This document shows, piece by piece, positions 3,463-31,504 of a stretch of 33,224 bases of DNA. Every line of letters begins with the position of its first letter. Position 1 is the first letter of the stretch. This DNA comes from Desulfobacca sp. (GTDB taxonomy: Bacteria > Desulfobacterota > Desulfobaccia > Desulfobaccales > Desulfobaccaceae). Under the pieces are notes generated by a model. It was not told where the DNA came from. It searched no databases and saw only the letters and a list, made by a program, of their open reading frames with translations. The stretch lies in NCBI GenBank assembly GCA_028695935.1, contig JAQVHY010000011.1, positions 8,546-41,769 on the forward strand, in the 5' to 3' direction. A program made the position numbers and the translations under genes.

Positions 3463-4496
<1,034 letters not shown>

Positions 4497-5873
4497 TTAA
4501 AGAATGTAACGGCTCAAATCTTCGTCGGCGATCAGGTTGGCCAACCGTTCCTGGACATAGGCCGCGCTGATGGTAATCTTGGACTTGCCCAGATCCGGGG
4601 CGTTGAAGGAAATATCTTCGACCAATTTCTCCATCACCGTATGCAGACGCCGGGCCCCGATGTTTTCGGTACGTTCATTGACCTGAGTGGCCAGGGCGGC
4701 AATTTCCTTGACGGCGTCCGGCTCAAACTCCAATTCGATGCCCTCGGTGGCCATAAGCGCCTGGTACTGCTTGACCAGGGCATTTTCCGGTTCGGTCAGG
4801 ATGCGTTCAAATTCCTCCTGTCCTAAAGACTGCAACTCTACCCGGATGGGGAAACGGCCCTGCATCTCCGGGATCAGGTCAGAGGGCTTGGAGATATGAA
4901 AAGCCCCGGACGCGATGAATAGAATGTGATCGGTCCGCACCATGCCATGTTTGGTGGTTACGGTGGAGCCTTCGACAATGGGTAACAGGTCGCGTTGCAC
5001 CCCTTCCCGGGACACATCCGGCCCCCGGGTCTGGTCGCGGCCGACGATCTTGTCGATTTCATCGAGAAAAATAATGCCGCTCTGTTCCACCTTGCGGCGA
5101 GCCTGCTCGATCACCCGATCCATGTCGATGAGCCGTTGGGCCTCCTCTTGCACCAGGATTTCCCGGGCTTCACAGATCTTGACCTTACGCCGCTTGGTTT
5201 GGGCCGGAAACAGGTTACCGAACATCTCTTTGAAATTGATGTCCATTTCCTCCAGCCCGGCGCTGGAAAAGATTTCCACGATGGGCATGGTCCGCTGTGA
5301 GACCTCGAGATCTACAAAACGGTCATCCAATCGCCCATCTCTAAGCAAACGCCGGAGTTTCTCCCGGGTCTGCTCGGCGTCCTCCGGTTTGGGAACCTGG
5401 GCTTCGGTCTCCGAACGCCGGGGGCTGGCGGGCAGCAACAGGTCGAGCAGGCGTTCTTCGGCCACTTCCTGGGCCTTGACCTTGACCTTCTCACGCTCCT
5501 CAGCCTTGACCATATTGACCGCCAGTTCCATCAGGTCGCGGATCATCGACTCCACATCGCGGCCTACATAGCCGACCTCAGTGAACTTGCTGGCCTCGAT
5601 CTTCAAAAACGGCGACTGGGCCAGCTTGGCCAGGCGTCGGGCGATTTCGGTCTTGCCGACCCCGGTGGGGCCGATCATAATGATGTTTTTGGGGGCAACC
5701 TCATCGCGCAAACCCTCGGGGATCTGCTGCCGCCGCCAGCGGTTGCGCAAGGCAATGGCCACCGAGCGCTTGGCGTCGGCCTGGCCGATAATGTATTTGT
5801 CCAGCTCCGACACGATCTCCCGCGGCGTCAGATGGTCGCCGCGTATCCGTAATGGTCGTCTCATCAATTCCAT
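4497..5873 (-). CDS. hslU: HslU ATPase, unfoldase subunit of HslUV protease
   Basis: This 458-residue AAA+ protein forms the hexameric ATP-dependent unfoldase that feeds substrates to the HslV peptidase in the cytoplasm. Walker A GPTGVGKT is at 68-75, the pore loop GYVGRD lies near 102-107, Walker B is GIIFLDEID, and the sensor region contains IASGAFH. The C-terminus SRYIL is the conserved tail that inserts into HslV. The length is normal. It lies downstream of hslV and xerC in the same direction, but a gap of about 240 bp containing repeat copy B separates it from hslV. No clear Shine-Dalgarno site is seen before ATG 5873 or the alternative ATG at 5864. Confidence 0.98.
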
Positions 5874-24897: not shown

Positions 24898-26865
24898 ATG
24901 GCAGGTAAAAACCCGATCAAATTTACTGATACTACCTTTCGGGATGGTCATCAATCCTCCCTGGCCACCCGCATGCGGACCGAAGACATGCTTGACATGG
25001 CGGAACGTATGGACAATATAGGCTTCTGGGCCATGGAGGTCTGGGGCGGCGCCACCTTTGATGTCACCCACCGGTTCTTGGCCGAAGATCCCTGGGAACG
25101 CATCCGCACTCTGAAAAAGTATATCAAGAAGACGCCCTTTATGATGCTGTTGCGGGGCCAGAACCTGGTGGGCTATCGTCATTATCCCGACGATGTGGTC
25201 TTTCCCTTTGTAAAATATGCCGCCGAATGTGGCATCAACATCTTTCGGGTCTTTGACGCCTTGAATGATATGCGCAATTTTGAGGCCTCCTTCAAGGCCA
25301 TTAAGGAATGCAAGAAGGCCGGCCTGGATGTACACATTCAGGCCGCAGTGTGCTTCTCCTTGACCCAGCGCCGCATGGGCGGGGAAGTCTATACCAAGGA
25401 CTATTATGTGGATTTTGCCAAACGCTCGGTGGATATGGGCGCCGACTCCTTCTGTGTCAAAGATATGGCCGGCATGATCTCCCCTTACGACGCCTACGAT
25501 CTGATCAAGACCCTGAAGGCCACCATCGACATCCCCATCGAACTGCATACCCACTATACCAGCGGCCAAGCCTCCATGGCTTATCTCAAAGCCATCGAAG
25601 CCGGAGTCGATGTGGTCGATACCTGTCTGTCGCCCTTTGGCCTGCGGACCTCACAGCCCGCCATCGAGCCGATTCTGGTGTCGGTGGAGAATACTGATCG
25701 GGAATCGCCGCTGGATCTGGCCACCCTGATCGAGTTAGTCCAGGATCTGGAAAAGGTGGCCCCCAAGTATCGGGATTTCTTGGACACCAGCAAGATGGCG
25801 GTGATTGACACCGGCGTGCTGCTCCACCAGATTCCGGGGGGGATGTATTCCAACCTGGTGTCGCAACTCAAGCAGGCCGACGCCCTGGACCGCATCCTGG
25901 AGGTGATGCATGAATTGCCCCAGACCCGGAAAGAGCTGGGATATCCCCCGCTGGTCACCCCGACCAGCCAGATCGTCGGCATCCAGGCGGTGCAAAACGT
26001 GCTCTTTGGACGCTACCAGATGATCTCCGGCCAGGTCAAGGATCTGGCCTATGGTCTGTATGGCAAAACTCCGGCCCCGATGGATCCGGAAGTGCAAAAA
26101 CTGATCCTTAAAGGCTACGAGCGGGGCGAAGAGCCCATTACCTGCCGGGCCGCCGATGTCCTCGAGCCGGAATTGGCAAGGGCCCAGGAGGCCACCAAAG
26201 GGCTGGCCAAAAGTATTGGCGATGTGTTGATTTATGCCCTCTACCCCACTACCGGGTTACGATTCTTGAAGTGGAAATATGGGGTGGAACCGATCCCTGA
26301 GGATGTCAAGCCCATTAGTATGGAACAGATCAGACTGGAAGATGAAGTTATCAACAAAATCAAGCAAAAAAACCTCTTCCAGCAGGTCAAAGACTACCTC
26401 GACAGTCTGGACCGGCCAGCCCCGGAAAAGGGCGAGGGGATGCGGACCTTCAACGTCTTTGTGGACGGCGAATATTTTGAGGTGGAGGTGGAATGCACTT
26501 CTGGAGCACCAGTAATTACCGCCGCGACCGCCATGCCCCAACCGGTGGCTGCGCCCCAGCCCGCGGCTGTAGCCCCCAAACCGGCCCCGAGTGCGGCTCC
26601 GGCTAAACCTGCCCCGGCCGCGGCTCCGGTTGCCGGAGTGGCCCCCGGCGAAGTGCCTTTGCGTTCACCGATGCCCGGCATGGTGATCAGTTACAGTGTC
26701 GGCGTGGGCGATCAGGTCAAGGTGGGCGACCCCATCTGCATCCTGGAAGCTATGAAGATGCAGAATAATCTACCGGCCCCGGCCAGCGGCACGGTCAAGG
26801 CCATCAATTACGAACCCGGCGCCTCGGTGGCCAAGGATGCCATTTTGCTGGTGATCGCTACCTAA
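24898..26865 (+). CDS. Pyruvate/oxaloacetate carboxyltransferase with C-terminal biotin carrier (5S-1.3S fusion)
   Basis: This 655-residue protein has an N-terminal HMGL-like TIM barrel (about 1-300): DTTFRDGHQS with metal ligand Asp16, the carbamylated-lysine position K188 in CVKDMAGM, and His217/His219 in ELHTHYTSG. A PYC/OADA conserved domain (about 300-480) follows, then an Ala/Pro-rich linker (about 540-590) and a biotinyl domain with EAMKM (biotin on Lys620). It moves carboxyl groups between pyruvate/oxaloacetate and biotin. It could be OadA or PycB, but adjacency to the mmdA-type gene and the absence of biotin carboxylase or an OadB/MmdB pump favours a transcarboxylase subunit. TTTTAGGAGACTAGAC provides the ribosome site. 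Confidence 0.92.
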   Translation: MAGKNPIKFTDTTFRDGHQSSLATRMRTEDMLDMAERMDNIGFWAMEVWGGATFDVTHRFLAEDPWERIRTLKKYIKKTPFMMLLRGQNLVGYRHYPDDVVFPFVKYAAECGINIFRVFDALNDMRNFEASFKAIKECKKAGLDVHIQAAVCFSLTQRRMGGEVYTKDYYVDFAKRSVDMGADSFCVKDMAGMISPYDAYDLIKTLKATIDIPIELHTHYTSGQASMAYLKAIEAGVDVVDTCLSPFGLRTSQPAIEPILVSVENTDRESPLDLATLIELVQDLEKVAPKYRDFLDTSKMAVIDTGVLLHQIPGGMYSNLVSQLKQADALDRILEVMHELPQTRKELGYPPLVTPTSQIVGIQAVQNVLFGRYQMISGQVKDLAYGLYGKTPAPMDPEVQKLILKGYERGEEPITCRAADVLEPELARAQEATKGLAKSIGDVLIYALYPTTGLRFLKWKYGVEPIPEDVKPISMEQIRLEDEVINKIKQKNLFQQVKDYLDSLDRPAPEKGEGMRTFNVFVDGEYFEVEVECTSGAPVITAATAMPQPVAAPQPAAVAPKPAPSAAPAKPAPAAAPVAGVAPGEVPLRSPMPGMVISYSVGVGDQVKVGDPICILEAMKMQNNLPAPASGTVKAINYEPGASVAKDAILLVIAT

Positions 26866-26881
26866 CCGGACATGCCTGGCC

Positions 26882-27340
26882 TCAGGCCGGGTTGCCCAAG
26901 GTTGCTGTCGCCTCCCGAGGGTTCTCCCCGCGGGCCTCGGGAGGCGAAGGCTCCAAGATCTCGATCTCGGTAATTTTTTCCTCACCATCTACTGCCACCC
27001 GGAGGTCTCTTTCCACCACCTGCCCGGATTGGTCAACAATCCTTTGCTTGGGAAATACGTATAACGATTCCCCCATTCCGGCTTCCTTATTAGTGGGCGG
27101 CCCGAGCCGGGCGATAGCCTTGGCTAAGGGATCACCGACGTCTAGGAAATCCTCAGGATACATAGTCCGGTGCATACGATGACATTCCAGCTGATACTGC
27201 TTTAATTCATTACTCTGGACGGCACTGCGAATCAAAGAGGTGCACAGCTTCCCTACCCCCAATCCGAGCTGTACCGGGGTACAGCCGGTCAAGATCCCGG
27301 CCAGACTAATTATCATTATCTGATGATACCACTGGGGCAT
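26882..27340 (-). CDS. Lipoprotein of unknown function
   Basis: A 152-residue protein with a lipoprotein signal: a hydrophobic stretch and lipobox LTGC ending at Cys20. The mature part has PLAKAIARLGPPT, a segment like the SmpA/OmlA-type 'GxP' repeat seen in small outer-membrane lipoproteins, then ESLYVFPKQRIVDQSGQVVE and a Glu/Pro-rich tail. I do not recognise a named family. GGAG precedes ATG 27340. Its stop lies in a small hairpin (CCTGGCC/GGCCGGG, 26875-26891) shared with the convergent carboxyltransferase gene; there is no T-run, so termination is unproven. Confidence 0.75.
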   Translation of the reverse strand: MPQWYHQIMIISLAGILTGCTPVQLGLGVGKLCTSLIRSAVQSNELKQYQLECHRMHRTMYPEDFLDVGDPLAKAIARLGPPTNKEAGMGESLYVFPKQRIVDQSGQVVERDLRVAVDGEEKITEIEILEPSPPEARGENPREATATLGNPA

Positions 27341-27769
27341 GAGTGCTCCGCCCTTAAGGGTTGGGTTGGGTTGGAATGTTGCATTAAGTGACTCTGCAAT
27401 TTAAGTGCCTGATTAAAAAGCCACGCCATTGTCTGGATAACATATTGATTATTATGAAAAATAATCTTATAAGGACCGAAATCGGCCAGAATTTTGGACT
27501 CTGAGCCGAGCAAGGTTTGCCGCCCGCTTTCAGACAGATAAGGATCGATTTTCCCGCTTCGGGCGACGGCGAGGTAGATCGTTTCTCAAAAATCCAGGTT
27601 TCACGGTCAATTTTAGGGTGTGTTTATCAATCTGAGAAGAAAATCGGTTTGTTAAAAATGGTTTTCTATATAACTAATTAAATATATTAGCTAATCAAAT
27701 TATCGTCTGTTTGGCATTACAGTTGCAGAATTATCTAAGCATATACCTGATAAAGGAGGTAAACCAACC
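27341..27769 (+). other. Intergenic region between divergent lipoprotein genes
   Basis: It holds 429 bp, AT-rich toward the right (27600-27710), with a sigma-54-type promoter match at 27712-27727 and a strong ribosome site AAAGGAGGT at about 27752. A 65-codon minus-strand frame at 27316-27513 starts at TTG without a ribosome site and is not accepted as a gene. Confidence 0.6.
27712..27727 (+). promoter_or_regulatory. Sigma-54 (RpoN) promoter
   Basis: TGGCATTACAGTTGCA matches the -24/-12 consensus TGGCAYG-RNNN-TTGCW with the invariant GG and GC at exact spacing; only position 7 departs from consensus. Transcription would start near 27738, 32 bp before the glycine-zipper lipoprotein ATG. The AT-rich upstream 100 bp could host IHF bending and an activator site, but no enhancer-binding protein gene is in the window. 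Confidence 0.7.
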
Positions 27770-28060
27770 ATGAGCTGGATAAAACGTTTAGCAGTGGTTA
27801 TGCTCATAAGCTTATTCCTGGCGGGCTGCGCCGGTCAGAATCCTTATACTTATCAAGGGGCCGGGATCGGCGGGGCCTTGGGCGCGGGCACGGGAGCCTT
27901 GATTGATAGTAACAATCGTTGGCGGGGAGCTATGATCGGTGGGTTGGGGGGTGCAGCCCTGGGCGGCGCGGTTACCGAAATCAGCCGCCGGGCCGCGGAA
28001 GATTCCATGCAGCGTCAGAACTATTATGACAACCAGTCTCAGAGCCAGTATTACCGATAA
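27770..28060 (+). CDS. Glycine-zipper lipoprotein
   Basis: A 96-residue lipoprotein with signal and lipobox LAGC (Cys20). The mature part contains two glycine-zipper segments (about 30-44, GAGIGGALGAGTGAL; about 53-67, GAMIGGLGGAALGGA) that can pack in membranes, and a Gln/Ser/Tyr-rich tail. It resembles YMGG/17-kDa-antigen-type small outer-membrane lipoproteins linked to envelope stress in other bacteria. The AAAGGAGGT ribosome site is strong, and expression is probably sigma-54 dependent. Confidence 0.85.
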   Translation: MSWIKRLAVVMLISLFLAGCAGQNPYTYQGAGIGGALGAGTGALIDSNNRWRGAMIGGLGGAALGGAVTEISRRAAEDSMQRQNYYDNQSQSQYYR

Positions 28061-28095
28061 ATCGAGGCATACTGGGTGATGGCCGGGTGTTGTTA

Positions 28096-29079
28096 ATGTC
28101 TGACTTCGGCTCGCCGGTATGGAGCTATCAAGAGCTAGCGCTGGCAGCGATAGATCTTACCGATCGTAGTTTTGTAGTTAGCTATGGGTTTGAGCTTGAC
28201 CCCCTGGTGGACTCGATCCGCCAGGTAGGGCTACTTTACCCGCCCTTAGTACGCCTGCAGGCAGACGGCCGCGGGCAGGTGGTCTGCGGTTTAAAACGCC
28301 TTCTGGCCCTGGACCGCTTAGGCCGTAAGCGAATCTCTGTCCGGGTATGGCCGGAGACCACCTCCCCCGCCGTCTGTCTGTTGGCGGCCTTGCACGACAA
28401 TGTCTGGAGCCGGGGGTTTAATCTGGTGGAGCGGGGTGAAATGATTACCCGCTTACTGCGCTATTGGGATCGGGATACCGTCACCCGGAAGTTTCTACCC
28501 CGGTTGAACGTGCCTCCGGCGGCCAAATACCTGGAGCAGTATCAGCAACTGGTCAGACTGGAGGAGCCGTTCCGAGAACTGGCCGCCCAAGACCGCCTCG
28601 GTCTGGGGGTGGCGGCTAGCCTGAGTCACTGGCCTGCCGTCGATCGCCTGGCCCTGCTGCCGTGGCTGGCGCTGGCCCCTTTAAGTTACAGTAAACAGGT
28701 GGAGATGGTGGAGCACCTTAACACCCTCAGCCGCCGAGAGAGACTTAGTCCCCAGGCCATTCTGTCCCGGCCGGCCATTCACGGGCTTTTGGCCGATCCC
28801 GGTCTCAGGCCCCTGGAGAAGGTCAGCCGGGTTCGAGAGCAGTTGCGGCAATGGTGTTTTCCGCGCTACAGCGCTGCCCAACAGCAATTTGACACCTACC
28901 TCAAATCCCTCGGTCTTTACCAGCAATCAGATCTGCGGCTTCAGCCCACCCCGGCCTTTGAAGGAAATACCTTCAGATTGGAACTGCAGTTTGACCATCC
29001 CCAGCATCTGGCGGAGCGTCTGCGCCAATTACTAGAACTCACCGAGCGCGAGGAGTTTCAAGCCTTAACCCGCCTGTAA
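28096..29079 (+). CDS. ParB N-terminal-domain-like protein
   Basis: About 327 residues from ATG 28096 (GTG 28087 is possible; the ribosome site is weak). Residues about 35-85 fit the ParB/Srx-like fold: LDPLVDSIRQVGLLYPPLVR, then QVVCGLKRLLALDRLGRKRI. A segment like the ParB second box follows (LLAALHDNVWSRGFNLVERGEMI), then a helical region, possibly a DNA-binding HTH. The nucleotide-binding GERRxRA motif is changed to CGLKRLLAL, so CTP binding is doubtful. No ParA gene or parS-like palindrome is adjacent. It starts 35 bp after the glycine-zipper gene and may share its promoter. Role unknown; the fold call is moderately firm. Confidence 0.72.
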   Translation: MSDFGSPVWSYQELALAAIDLTDRSFVVSYGFELDPLVDSIRQVGLLYPPLVRLQADGRGQVVCGLKRLLALDRLGRKRISVRVWPETTSPAVCLLAALHDNVWSRGFNLVERGEMITRLLRYWDRDTVTRKFLPRLNVPPAAKYLEQYQQLVRLEEPFRELAAQDRLGLGVAASLSHWPAVDRLALLPWLALAPLSYSKQVEMVEHLNTLSRRERLSPQAILSRPAIHGLLADPGLRPLEKVSRVREQLRQWCFPRYSAAQQQFDTYLKSLGLYQQSDLRLQPTPAFEGNTFRLELQFDHPQHLAERLRQLLELTEREEFQALTRL

Positions 29080-29422
29080 TGTTCCAAAATAAATGGCAGA
29101 TGGAAATCTATTCCCGACATAGATATTGACAATTGAAAAATAGTAACCAATAATATAAATAGATTGTTTAGCCTACCTATAAGATAAAATAACCAGGTCT
29201 TGGAATCCAAATTTTGGGGAGCACAACCCAAGCCTAAGAGCTAACGGTCCGCCTAAAATTAAGGTCAGGGGAGATCGACAGCCGCCTACGGGCAAGGTGA
29301 TGAGAATCTAAAATACTAGTTTTGCCTAATCCTAGTGCGTTCTTACCGTCAACGACACAACATACAATGTTTACTCCTCACTTATTCACGGTAAAAAGCG
29401 CTAGCCAGTGGGAAGGAACTAC
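29080..29422 (+). promoter_or_regulatory. Upstream region of the DUF255 gene with candidate promoter
   Basis: TTGACA (29126-29131) is followed 17 bp later by AATAAT (29149-29154), a plausible sigma-70 promoter. Start would be near 29162, leaving a leader of about 260 nt. The leader is rich in short complementary segments (29230-29310, for example around GGTCCGCC and CCGCCTACGG), but no riboswitch family is recognised. GGAAGGA precedes ATG 29423. Confidence 0.4.
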
Positions 29423-31504
29423 ATGGATAACGATGGGGTCCCCAACCGGCTCCTCCATGAAAGTAGTCCATATCTGCAACAGCATGCGTATAATCCGGTA
29501 GATTGGTATCCCTGGGGACCTGAGGCTCTGGCGCGGGCTCGCCGGGAAGATCGTCCCATCCTGCTCAGTATTGGCTATTCTACCTGCCATTGGTGCCATG
29601 TCATGGCCCATGAGTGTTTTGAGAATCCGCAAATTGCTAAAATAATGAACGAGCGCTTTGTAAACATCAAGGTCGATCGCGAAGAACGTCCGGACCTGGA
29701 TGAAGTCTATATGAACGCCGTTCATCTGTTGACCGGTCGGGGGGGCTGGCCCCTAACCGTGTTTTTGACCCCAGAGCTTAAACCTTTTTATGGCGGCACC
29801 TATTTCCCTCCCGAGGATCGGGGGGGGCTGCCGGGGTTTCCCTGGTTGCTCACCGCCCTCAGCGAAGCCTATCAACGTAAGAAGACCGACATTAATATCG
29901 CCGCGCAGAGCTTGAGTCAGAAGATCAATATTATCGGGGAGATTAGGGAAGCCAGGCAGGAACCGACCCTCGAGGCCTTGGAGGCCGCCTACCAGAAAAT
30001 GATCCAAGATTTTGACGCGGTTCATGGCGGTTTCGGCTCGGCCCCGAAATTTCCACCGTCACTGGACCTGGACTTCCTGGAGCGCTGCTACTACCGCACC
30101 GGTGACGAAGCTTGCCGGGACAAACTAATCCTGACTCTGACCCGGATGGCTCGGGGTGGCCTCTATGATCAGCTGCGCGGCGGTTTCCATCGCTACACCG
30201 TCGACAGTGTCTGGTTGATCCCCCATTTTGAAAAGATGTTGTATGATAATGCCCTGCTGGCCCGGCGTTATCTGGAGGCCTTCCAAATCACCGGCGACCC
30301 CTGGTTCGCTCAGATTGCCCGAGAAACCTTAGATTATGTCCTGGCGGAAATGACGGCCCCGGAAGGCGGCTTCTATGCTGCCCAAGACGCGGATAGCGAA
30401 GGGGAAGAAGGCAAATTTTTTGTCTGGACGCCGGAGGAAGTCAAACAGGCGGTAGGCCCTGAGTACGCCCCAGTGGTAATTGCGGCCTATGGGGTAACTC
30501 CCGACGGCAACTTTGAACATGGCACCAGCGTTTTGCATCAACCCTTCTCCCGGGCCGAATTAGCCCAGCAATTCTCGATGTCAGAGGAAGAACTCGAAGA
30601 CCTTCTGGGGCATTGCCGGAGGCAAATGTTAGATTTCCGGGAGACCCGGGTCCGACCGCACCGCGATGACAAGATCATCACTGCCTGGAATGGCTTGATG
30701 ATCTCGGCCATGGCCTACGGCGGCCAGGTCTTGGGAGATGAACGTTACCGCCGCGCCGCCAGTAAATGTGCCAACTTCGTCCTGGATAAGCTTTTACAAG
30801 AAGAAAACTTAAAGCGCATCTGGGCCCAGGGTCGGGCCCGGCATCCCGGCTTTTTGGATGATTACGCCTGCCTGGTGGCCGGATTGTTGGACCTGTTTGA
30901 GACTGATTTCAACCCAGACTGGCTGTTGCCGGCGATCTTATTATCCGGCCTGATGGACGAGCGCTTTTACGATCCGGAGCAGAAATATTTTTTCTATTGT
31001 GCCCATGATCACGAGCAATTGATTACCCGCCCGCGTAACTTTTTTGATCAGGCCCTGCCCTCCGGGAACTCGGTGGCGGTCCATAACCTGATCCGCCTTT
31101 ACCGGCTTACGGAGAATCCGAGCTATCAAGAGCAGGCGGGGGACGTGCTCTCGCGGTTTCAAGGTATAATCACTGATAATCCCCGCGCCTTGGCTTATCT
31201 GTTGTCAGCCCAGGAGTCTTATCTGGCCCCGACCCTGGCTCTGACCCTGGTGGGCGATCCCGCGGATGAAACCATAACTCAGATGTTGGGCGTGATCTAC
31301 CGGCGTTATCTCCCACATCGCCGCCTGGTGCTGAAAAGTCCCCAGAATTGCACTGCCCTGGCCGGACTGGTGGCCGCGGTCAAGGAGTATGAAGCCCTGG
31401 AGGGCAAACCTACCGCCTTTGTCTGCCATGGATTTACCTGCCTGGCCCCGGTGCACACGGCTGCCGAACTTGAGGCCCACCTGGATAACTTGCCCCGACC
31501 GTAA
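29423..31504 (+). CDS. DUF255 thioredoxin-like/glycosidase-fold protein (YyaL type)
   Basis: A 693-residue protein of the YyaL/spermatogenesis-associated-20 type. The N-terminal thioredoxin-like domain (about 1-170) has [15 protein letters not shown], the CHWC motif (55-58), [10 protein letters not shown] and [11 protein letters not shown] with FYGGTYFPP. An alpha/alpha six-hairpin glycosidase-like domain (about 180-693) follows with [20 protein letters not shown] and [12 protein letters not shown]. The motifs and length match the family, whose function is unknown. No signal peptide is visible, so it is cytoplasmic. It is preceded by a long leader and ends before repeat copy H. Confidence 0.93.

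Follow-up and report, generated by a model that had tools for sequence, protein, structure and literature searches.

A predicted sigma-54 control region ahead of a glycine-zipper lipoprotein gene in Desulfobacca, and its apparently ECF-controlled counterpart in a sister family

Is the gene for a 96-residue glycine-zipper lipoprotein of Desulfobacca read from a sigma-54 promoter, as a single -24/-12 match ahead of its start codon suggests, and is the same control found among its relatives? The window, meaning the whole stretch of DNA that was analysed (33,224 bases), lies on contig C50 of a 3.17-Mb draft genome (G000). Comparison of sequences across the order indicates that positions 27620-27769 are very probably the sigma-54 control region of the lipoprotein gene, with an apparently ECF-controlled counterpart in the sister family. 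The features concerned are as follows.

24898..26865 (+), oadA-like oxaloacetate decarboxylase/pyruvate carboxylase B-type subunit, an upstream neighbour common to the sister family
27582..27588 (+), possible second half-site of the upstream activating sequence (UAS), TTTCTCA; weak, seen by eye, and in the same place in genome G001
27620..27642 (+), predicted UAS palindrome with core TTTATCAATCTGAGAAG at 27623-27639, from a profile match; its centre is 81 bp ahead of the -24 T
27712..27727 (+), predicted sigma-54 -24/-12 promoter TGGCATTACAGTTGCA, from a pattern match and conservation in 7 of 8 rows
27738 (+), predicted transcription start, about 12 nt past the -12 GC, placed by the general geometry of sigma-54 promoters
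27752..27760 (+), ribosome-binding site AAAGGAGGT, from sequence
27770..28060 (+), 96-aa glycine-zipper lipoprotein with lipobox LAGC, from the ORF and Pfam
28096..29079 (+), ParB-like protein (ParB_N), with an alternative GTG start at 28087
29408..31504 (+), DUF255/thioredoxin-domain protein, a downstream neighbour common to the sister family

The lipoprotein gene and its promoter

The lipoprotein is recognized by the YMGG-like Gly-zipper model of Pfam at 33.2 bits (cut-off 28.9) and lies above the cut-offs of PF13441 and PF05433. Its best NCBIfam matches, to OmpA-type lipoproteins, are far below cut-off, the best match to a solved structure is weak (6x65, E 0.031), and a low-confidence model (mean pLDDT 65.7, pTM 0.40) places helices at 3-20, 25-45 and 50-94. 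A 152-aa ORF with the lipobox LTGC lies on the opposite strand (26882-27340) between oadA and the sigma-54 region, is also present in the sister species G002, and has neither a Pfam match over cut-off nor an NCBIfam match.

The initial annotation had described an invariant GG and GC, correctly spaced for sigma-54, before the lipoprotein start. These are located on the plus strand in TGGCATTACAGTTGCA at 27712-27727 (GG at 27713-27714, GC at 27725-27726), and 42 nt separate the end of this element from the ATG at 27770. Transcription by sigma-54 polymerase begins some 12 nt past the -12 GC, which gives the start predicted at 27738. The exact pattern TGGCAYN5TTGCW occurs once in the 33,224 bases, where 0.11 occurrences are expected; 10 of 100 shuffled windows contained at least one exact match, and with up to two mismatches there were 18 matches in the window, fewer than the 29.3 given by chance. 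Taken alone, the site is thus suggestive at most. The genome nonetheless has the means to use it: G000 carries one copy of rpoN, sigma-54-activator AAA+ domains (18 strong matches and one weak), and exact promoter matches in clear excess over the reversed pattern (10 versus 0 of the TGGCAC type, 12 versus 1 of the TGGCAT type), and sigma-54 is therefore very probably in use there. Other signals were sparse, with one weak sigma-70-like match (9/12) at 27437-27465 and no RNA elements at Rfam cut-offs in 27000-29500.

The comparison covered 29 genomes of the order, which we take to be the Desulfobaccales of GTDB, comprising seven from the window's family (f1, presumably the Desulfobacca family) and 22 from the sister family (f2, presumably family 0-14-0-80-60-11). 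Lipoprotein matches at E<=1e-12 were present in 23 of the 29. The 54 lipoprotein-like matches at E<=0.001 include 33 with loci inspected, from which 29 rows were scored. The unscored loci are L033, truncated at a contig end and bearing the ECF motif described below, and L034, L035 and L036, weak matches to another lipoprotein type, the last with a TTAAT variant of that motif; the other 21 matches, also unscored, are mostly weak and include second copies in G016, G022 and G028.

Within 300 bp of the lipoprotein start, TGGC-N7-TTGCW, a pattern settled on after the sites had been seen, is present in seven of the eight rows from f1 and the f2 genome G010 (G000, G001, G003-G006 and G010) and in none of the 21 rows from the 16 other f2 genomes, the chance expectation being 0.0026 per 300-bp region under a first-order Markov null. 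The site lies at a similar distance from the start in five of the seven, namely 58 bp in G000, 57 in G004, 56 in G003 and G005, and 54 in G010, with outliers at 161 bp (G001) and 205 bp (G006). Among the seven sites the core is 97% identical, a figure that follows in part from choosing the sites by pattern, while flanks and spacer agree at about 30%. The exception is G002, where a gap of about 260 bp removes both the palindrome and the sigma-54 site, and in whose genome (93% complete) no strict palindrome match occurs anywhere. Since its lipoprotein is 99% identical and yet both elements are missing, either the promoter is dispensable in G002 or the assembly is wrong. The gap was mapped by comparing window positions 27290-27800 with L147 positions 5050-5420.

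These data bear on the possibility that the -24/-12 match arose by chance and that transcription of the gene starts instead at a sigma-70-type promoter or one of some other kind. Such a reading would draw on the expectation of 0.11 exact matches in the window, the weak sigma-70-like site and the persistence of the gene in G002 without a sigma-54 site, but it is very improbable in view of seven sites in eight rows at 0.0026 expected for each, flanks that have diverged around a conserved core, a UAS at looping distance, and the genome-wide enrichment of promoter matches over the reversed pattern. Comparison across orthologues thus appears to turn weak single-site evidence into strong evidence. 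The proposed sigma-54 control of the lipoprotein is well supported by conservation of the site in diverged orthologues together with the enhancer palindrome that they share.

The ParB-like gene downstream had been proposed to lie on the same transcript, which is plausible in the window's species because the gap from the lipoprotein stop is 26 nt (GTG 28087) or 35 nt (ATG 28096) and no terminator-like site was found between the two genes. The ParB_N domain scores 19.9 bits in the window's copy, under the Pfam cut-off of 26.3, and is found in all eight aligned orthologues at E<=0.01 (best 1.9e-6). The proposal does not generalize, however. G002 has the same arrangement as the window, but in G001 the ParB-like gene is split over three frames (L146, about 3833-4781), through real decay or sequencing error; in G003 it lies on the opposite strand beyond DUF255; it is more than 1 megabase away in G004, and is on other contigs in G005, G006 and G010. 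Co-transcription is thus plausible in the window's genus alone, and, since the ParB-like gene is displaced in G003-G006 and G010 and split in G001, the predicted sigma-54 control is tied to the lipoprotein and not to the ParB-like gene.

The upstream palindrome and the genes it accompanies

It had been suggested that an enhancer motif be sought in 27590-27700, and one was found there: the palindrome TTTATCAATCTGAGAAG at 27623-27639, a zero-mismatch match to the palindrome pattern beginning at 27623. The recurring palindrome was first spotted by reading upstream of seven sigma-54 sites, partly at these same promoters; the profile used to score it was built from 19 copies at loci elsewhere, with p values from 400 first-order Markov samples (floor 0.0025). 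Positions 27620-27642 are the window's top match to this profile, at 21.8 bits against 14.6 for the next, and the half-site at 27582-27588 received no ranking from it. Upstream of the lipoproteins the profile reaches the floor of 0.0025 in G000, G001, G006 and G010 and is weaker in G003 (p=0.04), G004 (0.10) and G005 (0.22); over 21 f2 lipoprotein regions one reached 0.03 and the others exceeded 0.05.

Over the 29 genomes the pattern TYTMTCRAWNTGAKAA gives 45 matches, against 4 when reversed, at 38 distinct places. TGGC-N7-TTGCW lies 81-153 bp away at 22 of these 38, which is the usual enhancer geometry for sigma-54; at nine the promoter of an ECF sigma gene lies 16-26 bp past the palindrome centre, and seven have neither promoter type in strict form. 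The nine copies just ahead of ECF-gene promoters lack a strict sigma-54 site, and an operator role would be natural for them; together with the finding that, by eye, no activator-like gene was among those read beside the palindrome, they could indicate that it serves as an operator for a repressor, or for some regulator unrelated to sigma-54, and lies near sigma-54 promoters by coincidence. This is unlikely given the 22 places at which a strict sigma-54 site stands 81-153 bp away, and an enhancer is the preferred interpretation. A putative enhancer-binding protein would bind TTTMTC-N5-GAKAAA at 27623-27639, and DNA looping would let the bound activator, in response to a presumed signal, open RNA polymerase-sigma-54 at 27712-27727. 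Transcription of the envelope lipoprotein would follow, in the window's genus probably extending into the ParB-like gene downstream.

The cognate activator was sought with a hand-made palindrome score at the sigma-54/activator loci of G000, and no convincing match preceded an activator gene. The best score (15.0/17, in L063) should, by its position, fall inside the gene. An activator on the same contig as the G000 synthase gene (C128:8904) was not named as the regulator, GAFTGA being absent from it by motif check.

Behind 18 of the 22 pairs of palindrome and sigma-54 site, in 16 f2 genomes and in G000 and G005 of f1, lies a gene for one and the same kind of membrane glycosyltransferase, as judged by eye from its opening residues. 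Because these pairs span both families, sigma-54 control of this polysaccharide synthase appears to have been kept in both. One copy was scanned, that of G007; it is a family-2 glycosyltransferase and comes closest to the NodC and PgaC/IcaA models, reaching the cut-off of neither. Three further pairs precede the lipoproteins of G000, G001 and G010, and the remaining one stands ahead of a nifH-like gene on G019 C248 and may have no connection with the others. A fusion of cyclic-nucleotide-binding, rhodanese and MauE/DoxX-like membrane segments (L191 14212-15651) is divergent from an f2 synthase.

In G000 itself there are four palindrome matches, before the lipoprotein, before the glycosyltransferase on C128, whose gene runs off the contig, and before the genes for a DUF6600 protein on C158 and an RlpA-type protein on C4. 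The sigma-54 promoters of the last two are imperfect, and G001 C30 resembles C4. The C4 gene (L190 2957-3535) has an apparent ATT start after a strong ribosome-binding site, and its G001 C30 counterpart (L245) is alike. The palindrome is thus best described as the predicted mark of a sigma-54 regulon. A PgaC/NodC-like polysaccharide synthase is the conserved member of this regulon, and the lipoprotein and, in G000, apparently the RlpA-type and DUF6600 proteins would also belong to it. As to the inducible envelope response that had been envisaged, these companions would fit its envelope part, and inducibility stays a proposal. A single -24/-12 match would in this way have led to a defined regulon for which the enhancer sequence can be given.

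A composite scan of named genomes for palindrome and promoter together returned 33 stretches, of which 32 were read. Nine carry a synthase ORF behind the elements (L199, L201, L211, L215, L218, L228, L196, L213 and L222), and the first 110 synthase residues are identical between isolate CG07_land_8_20_14_0_80_60_11 (L228) and the f2 genome G024. Eight Firmicutes stretches (L197, L198, L200, L204, L208, L212, L217 and L221), which have a similar AT-rich palindrome before genes that by eye resemble diaminopropionate ammonia-lyase, probably belong to another activator and were set aside; the remainder are mixed and were likewise taken as other regulators.

Apparent ECF-type control in the sister family

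A second motif, TTAAC-N18/19-TC[TA]A, stands 68-81 bp before the lipoprotein start in 18 of the 21 f2 rows, every one of the 16 genomes contributing at least one, and in none of the eight f1 and G010 rows; the chance expectation is 0.0086 per 300-bp region (first-order Markov). The three f2 rows without it include G015b and G017b, the second genes of tandem pairs. A stricter form has 31 matches in 17 of the 29 genomes (none for the reversed pattern), and is absent from the seven f1 genomes, from G010 and from the f2 genomes G015, G019, G021 and G023. Among 30 strict-motif loci read, seven precede a lipoprotein, seven an RpoD-like sigma gene and one an ECF sigma gene, and the remainder precede exported proteins or other genes or are unassigned. 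Tyrosine/proline-rich exported proteins also follow the motif in f2 (among L088, L089, L094 and L106). For the long sigma gene that follows ECF-type promoters in f2, an identity as RpoH was considered and rejected, the nearest NCBIfam model for the one copy scanned (L089) being RpoD, below cut-off.

The same motif lies just upstream of an ECF sigma gene in all 22 f2 copies (L116-L137), and 21 of the 22 have a zinc-finger anti-sigma signature behind that gene. Orthologues of this sigma factor (68-100% identity) occur in 22 of 22 f2 genomes and in none of the seven f1 genomes; the best ECF matches in f1 reach 34-39% identity, a level at which f2 genomes hold a further ECF gene. At E<=1e-45 it is found in eight of 297 genomes sampled over the phylum, all of them f2. 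Given this distribution, the ECF sigma factor looks like a gain of f2. The f2 lipoprotein would be among the targets of this RpoE-like ECF sigma factor, which would regulate its own gene and has a zinc-finger anti-sigma partner. In the window, no ECF promoter precedes the lipoprotein gene, and no orthologue of this sigma factor was found in G000.

The two promoter types are thus complementary in distribution, and promoter type follows the lipoprotein lineage in the rows scored. Control of the lipoprotein gene would lie with sigma-54 in f1 and G010 and apparently with an ECF sigma factor in the rest of f2, and the gene may have changed regulators. Sigma-54 control is likelier to be the older state, as we infer. 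Shared gene order speaks to the course of events: the lipoprotein is flanked by oadA and the ParB-like gene in the f2 genomes G013, G015 and G017 as it is in the window's genus, with a DUF255 gene on the same stretch (the G017 contig begins inside oadA).

The genome that complicates this history is G010, which has the ECF sigma gene with its own promoter and yet carries its lipoprotein under a sigma-54-type promoter, outside the usual oadA/ParB-like slot. In a lipoprotein tree (29 rows, short alignment) G010 joins f1, with the split at 100/99, but in a ParB-like tree it groups with f2 at 100/100; both are midpoint-rooted trees of short or single genes, with long-branch warnings for G018a (near the f1 group) in the former and for G010 in the latter. 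Transfer of the gene, its relocation, or a loss of different paralogues in different lineages could each account for the pattern. On the last of these, which concerns history only, the f1/G010 and f2 lipoproteins would be old paralogues that had acquired their own promoters before the families split, different copies having been kept. The discordant position of G010 in the two trees and the two scored copies in five of the 16 scored f2 genomes, where more copies exist, lend this account some weight, and we consider it a real, if lesser, possibility. The oadA/ParB-like slot shared by the window's genus and the f2 genomes read favours instead one locus with altered control, and no scored genome bears both promoter types at its lipoproteins. 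For the G010 copy, which is outside the slot, transfer or relocation is also possible.

A more speculative reading, and one that we hold to be rather doubtful, draws on the palindrome found 16-26 bp ahead of the ECF sigma gene promoter in nine f2 genomes (g3, g4 and g9). Here a single circuit would act directly in f1, from activator to lipoprotein through sigma-54, and indirectly in these nine genomes, from activator to ECF sigma factor to lipoprotein. If this were so, the response would have been conserved, but its wiring would have been diverted to pass through the ECF sigma factor that f2 had gained, and G010 would represent an intermediate. Together, the two families would offer a natural experiment, a single envelope gene being driven by an activator-dependent sigma-54 switch on one side and apparently by a stress-type ECF sigma factor on the other, with the synthase under sigma-54 on both sides. 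The sigma-54 version is open to experiment because Desulfobacca acetoxidans (DSM 11109), a cultured f1 member, carries it, with the site 57 bp ahead of the lipoprotein start.

Comparison with known systems

The window's protein has the lipobox and glycine zipper of the YMGG, Rickettsia 17-kDa antigen and SlyB lipoproteins, and differs from them in being 96 aa long with NCBIfam matches far below cut-off. SlyB acts in envelope stress. The f2 sigma/anti-sigma pair resembles RpoE-type ECF operons in its Sigma70_r2 and r4 domains, its zf-HC2 partner and its own promoter motif, with RpoE the nearest NCBIfam model, below that model's cut-off; this sigma factor was not found in the window's family and is known here from sequence. 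In the part of the literature covered, no paper was found on a glycine-zipper lipoprotein under RpoN or on sigma factors of the Desulfobaccales, and, on regulatory rewiring of orthologous promoters involving sigma-54, the two papers that came up concern, by title and abstract, other matters.

The predicted control region of the lipoprotein has the anatomy of an ordinary sigma-54 one, and its closest parallels link such promoters to exopolysaccharide. Desulfovibrio vulgaris, likewise a sulfate reducer, has many activators, and the portions of the two reports considered here demonstrate or predict sigma-54 promoters before exopolysaccharide/biofilm and envelope-stress genes (PMC4641369, PMC3333781). 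The main text of the first contains no mention of a lipoprotein, TTCTCA or TGAGAA, its motif logos being figures outside the comparison, and the second, in the part considered, reports no validated binding motif for the D. vulgaris exopolysaccharide regulators (PMC3333781). The PEP-CTERM or PrsR-PrsK regulon similarly joins a sigma-54 promoter to an upstream activator motif and to exopolysaccharide (PMC1569441, PMC9850573). Its activator motif is described around TTTACA, however, and the palindrome reads TTTMTC-N5-GAKAAA and contains no TTTACA; PrsR was set aside as the regulator on this described motif alone. Logos apart, no motif matching the palindrome appears in the portions considered of the D. 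vulgaris and PEP-CTERM texts (PMC4641369, PMC3333781, PMC1569441, PMC9850573). More broadly, sigma-54 has been portrayed as governing the exterior of the bacterial cell (PMC3162934), and, as far as that account was consulted, a lipoprotein, a polysaccharide synthase and wall-related genes would fit its theme. The lipoprotein departs from the theme in one respect, in that the corresponding gene of the sister family appears to lie outside sigma-54 control.
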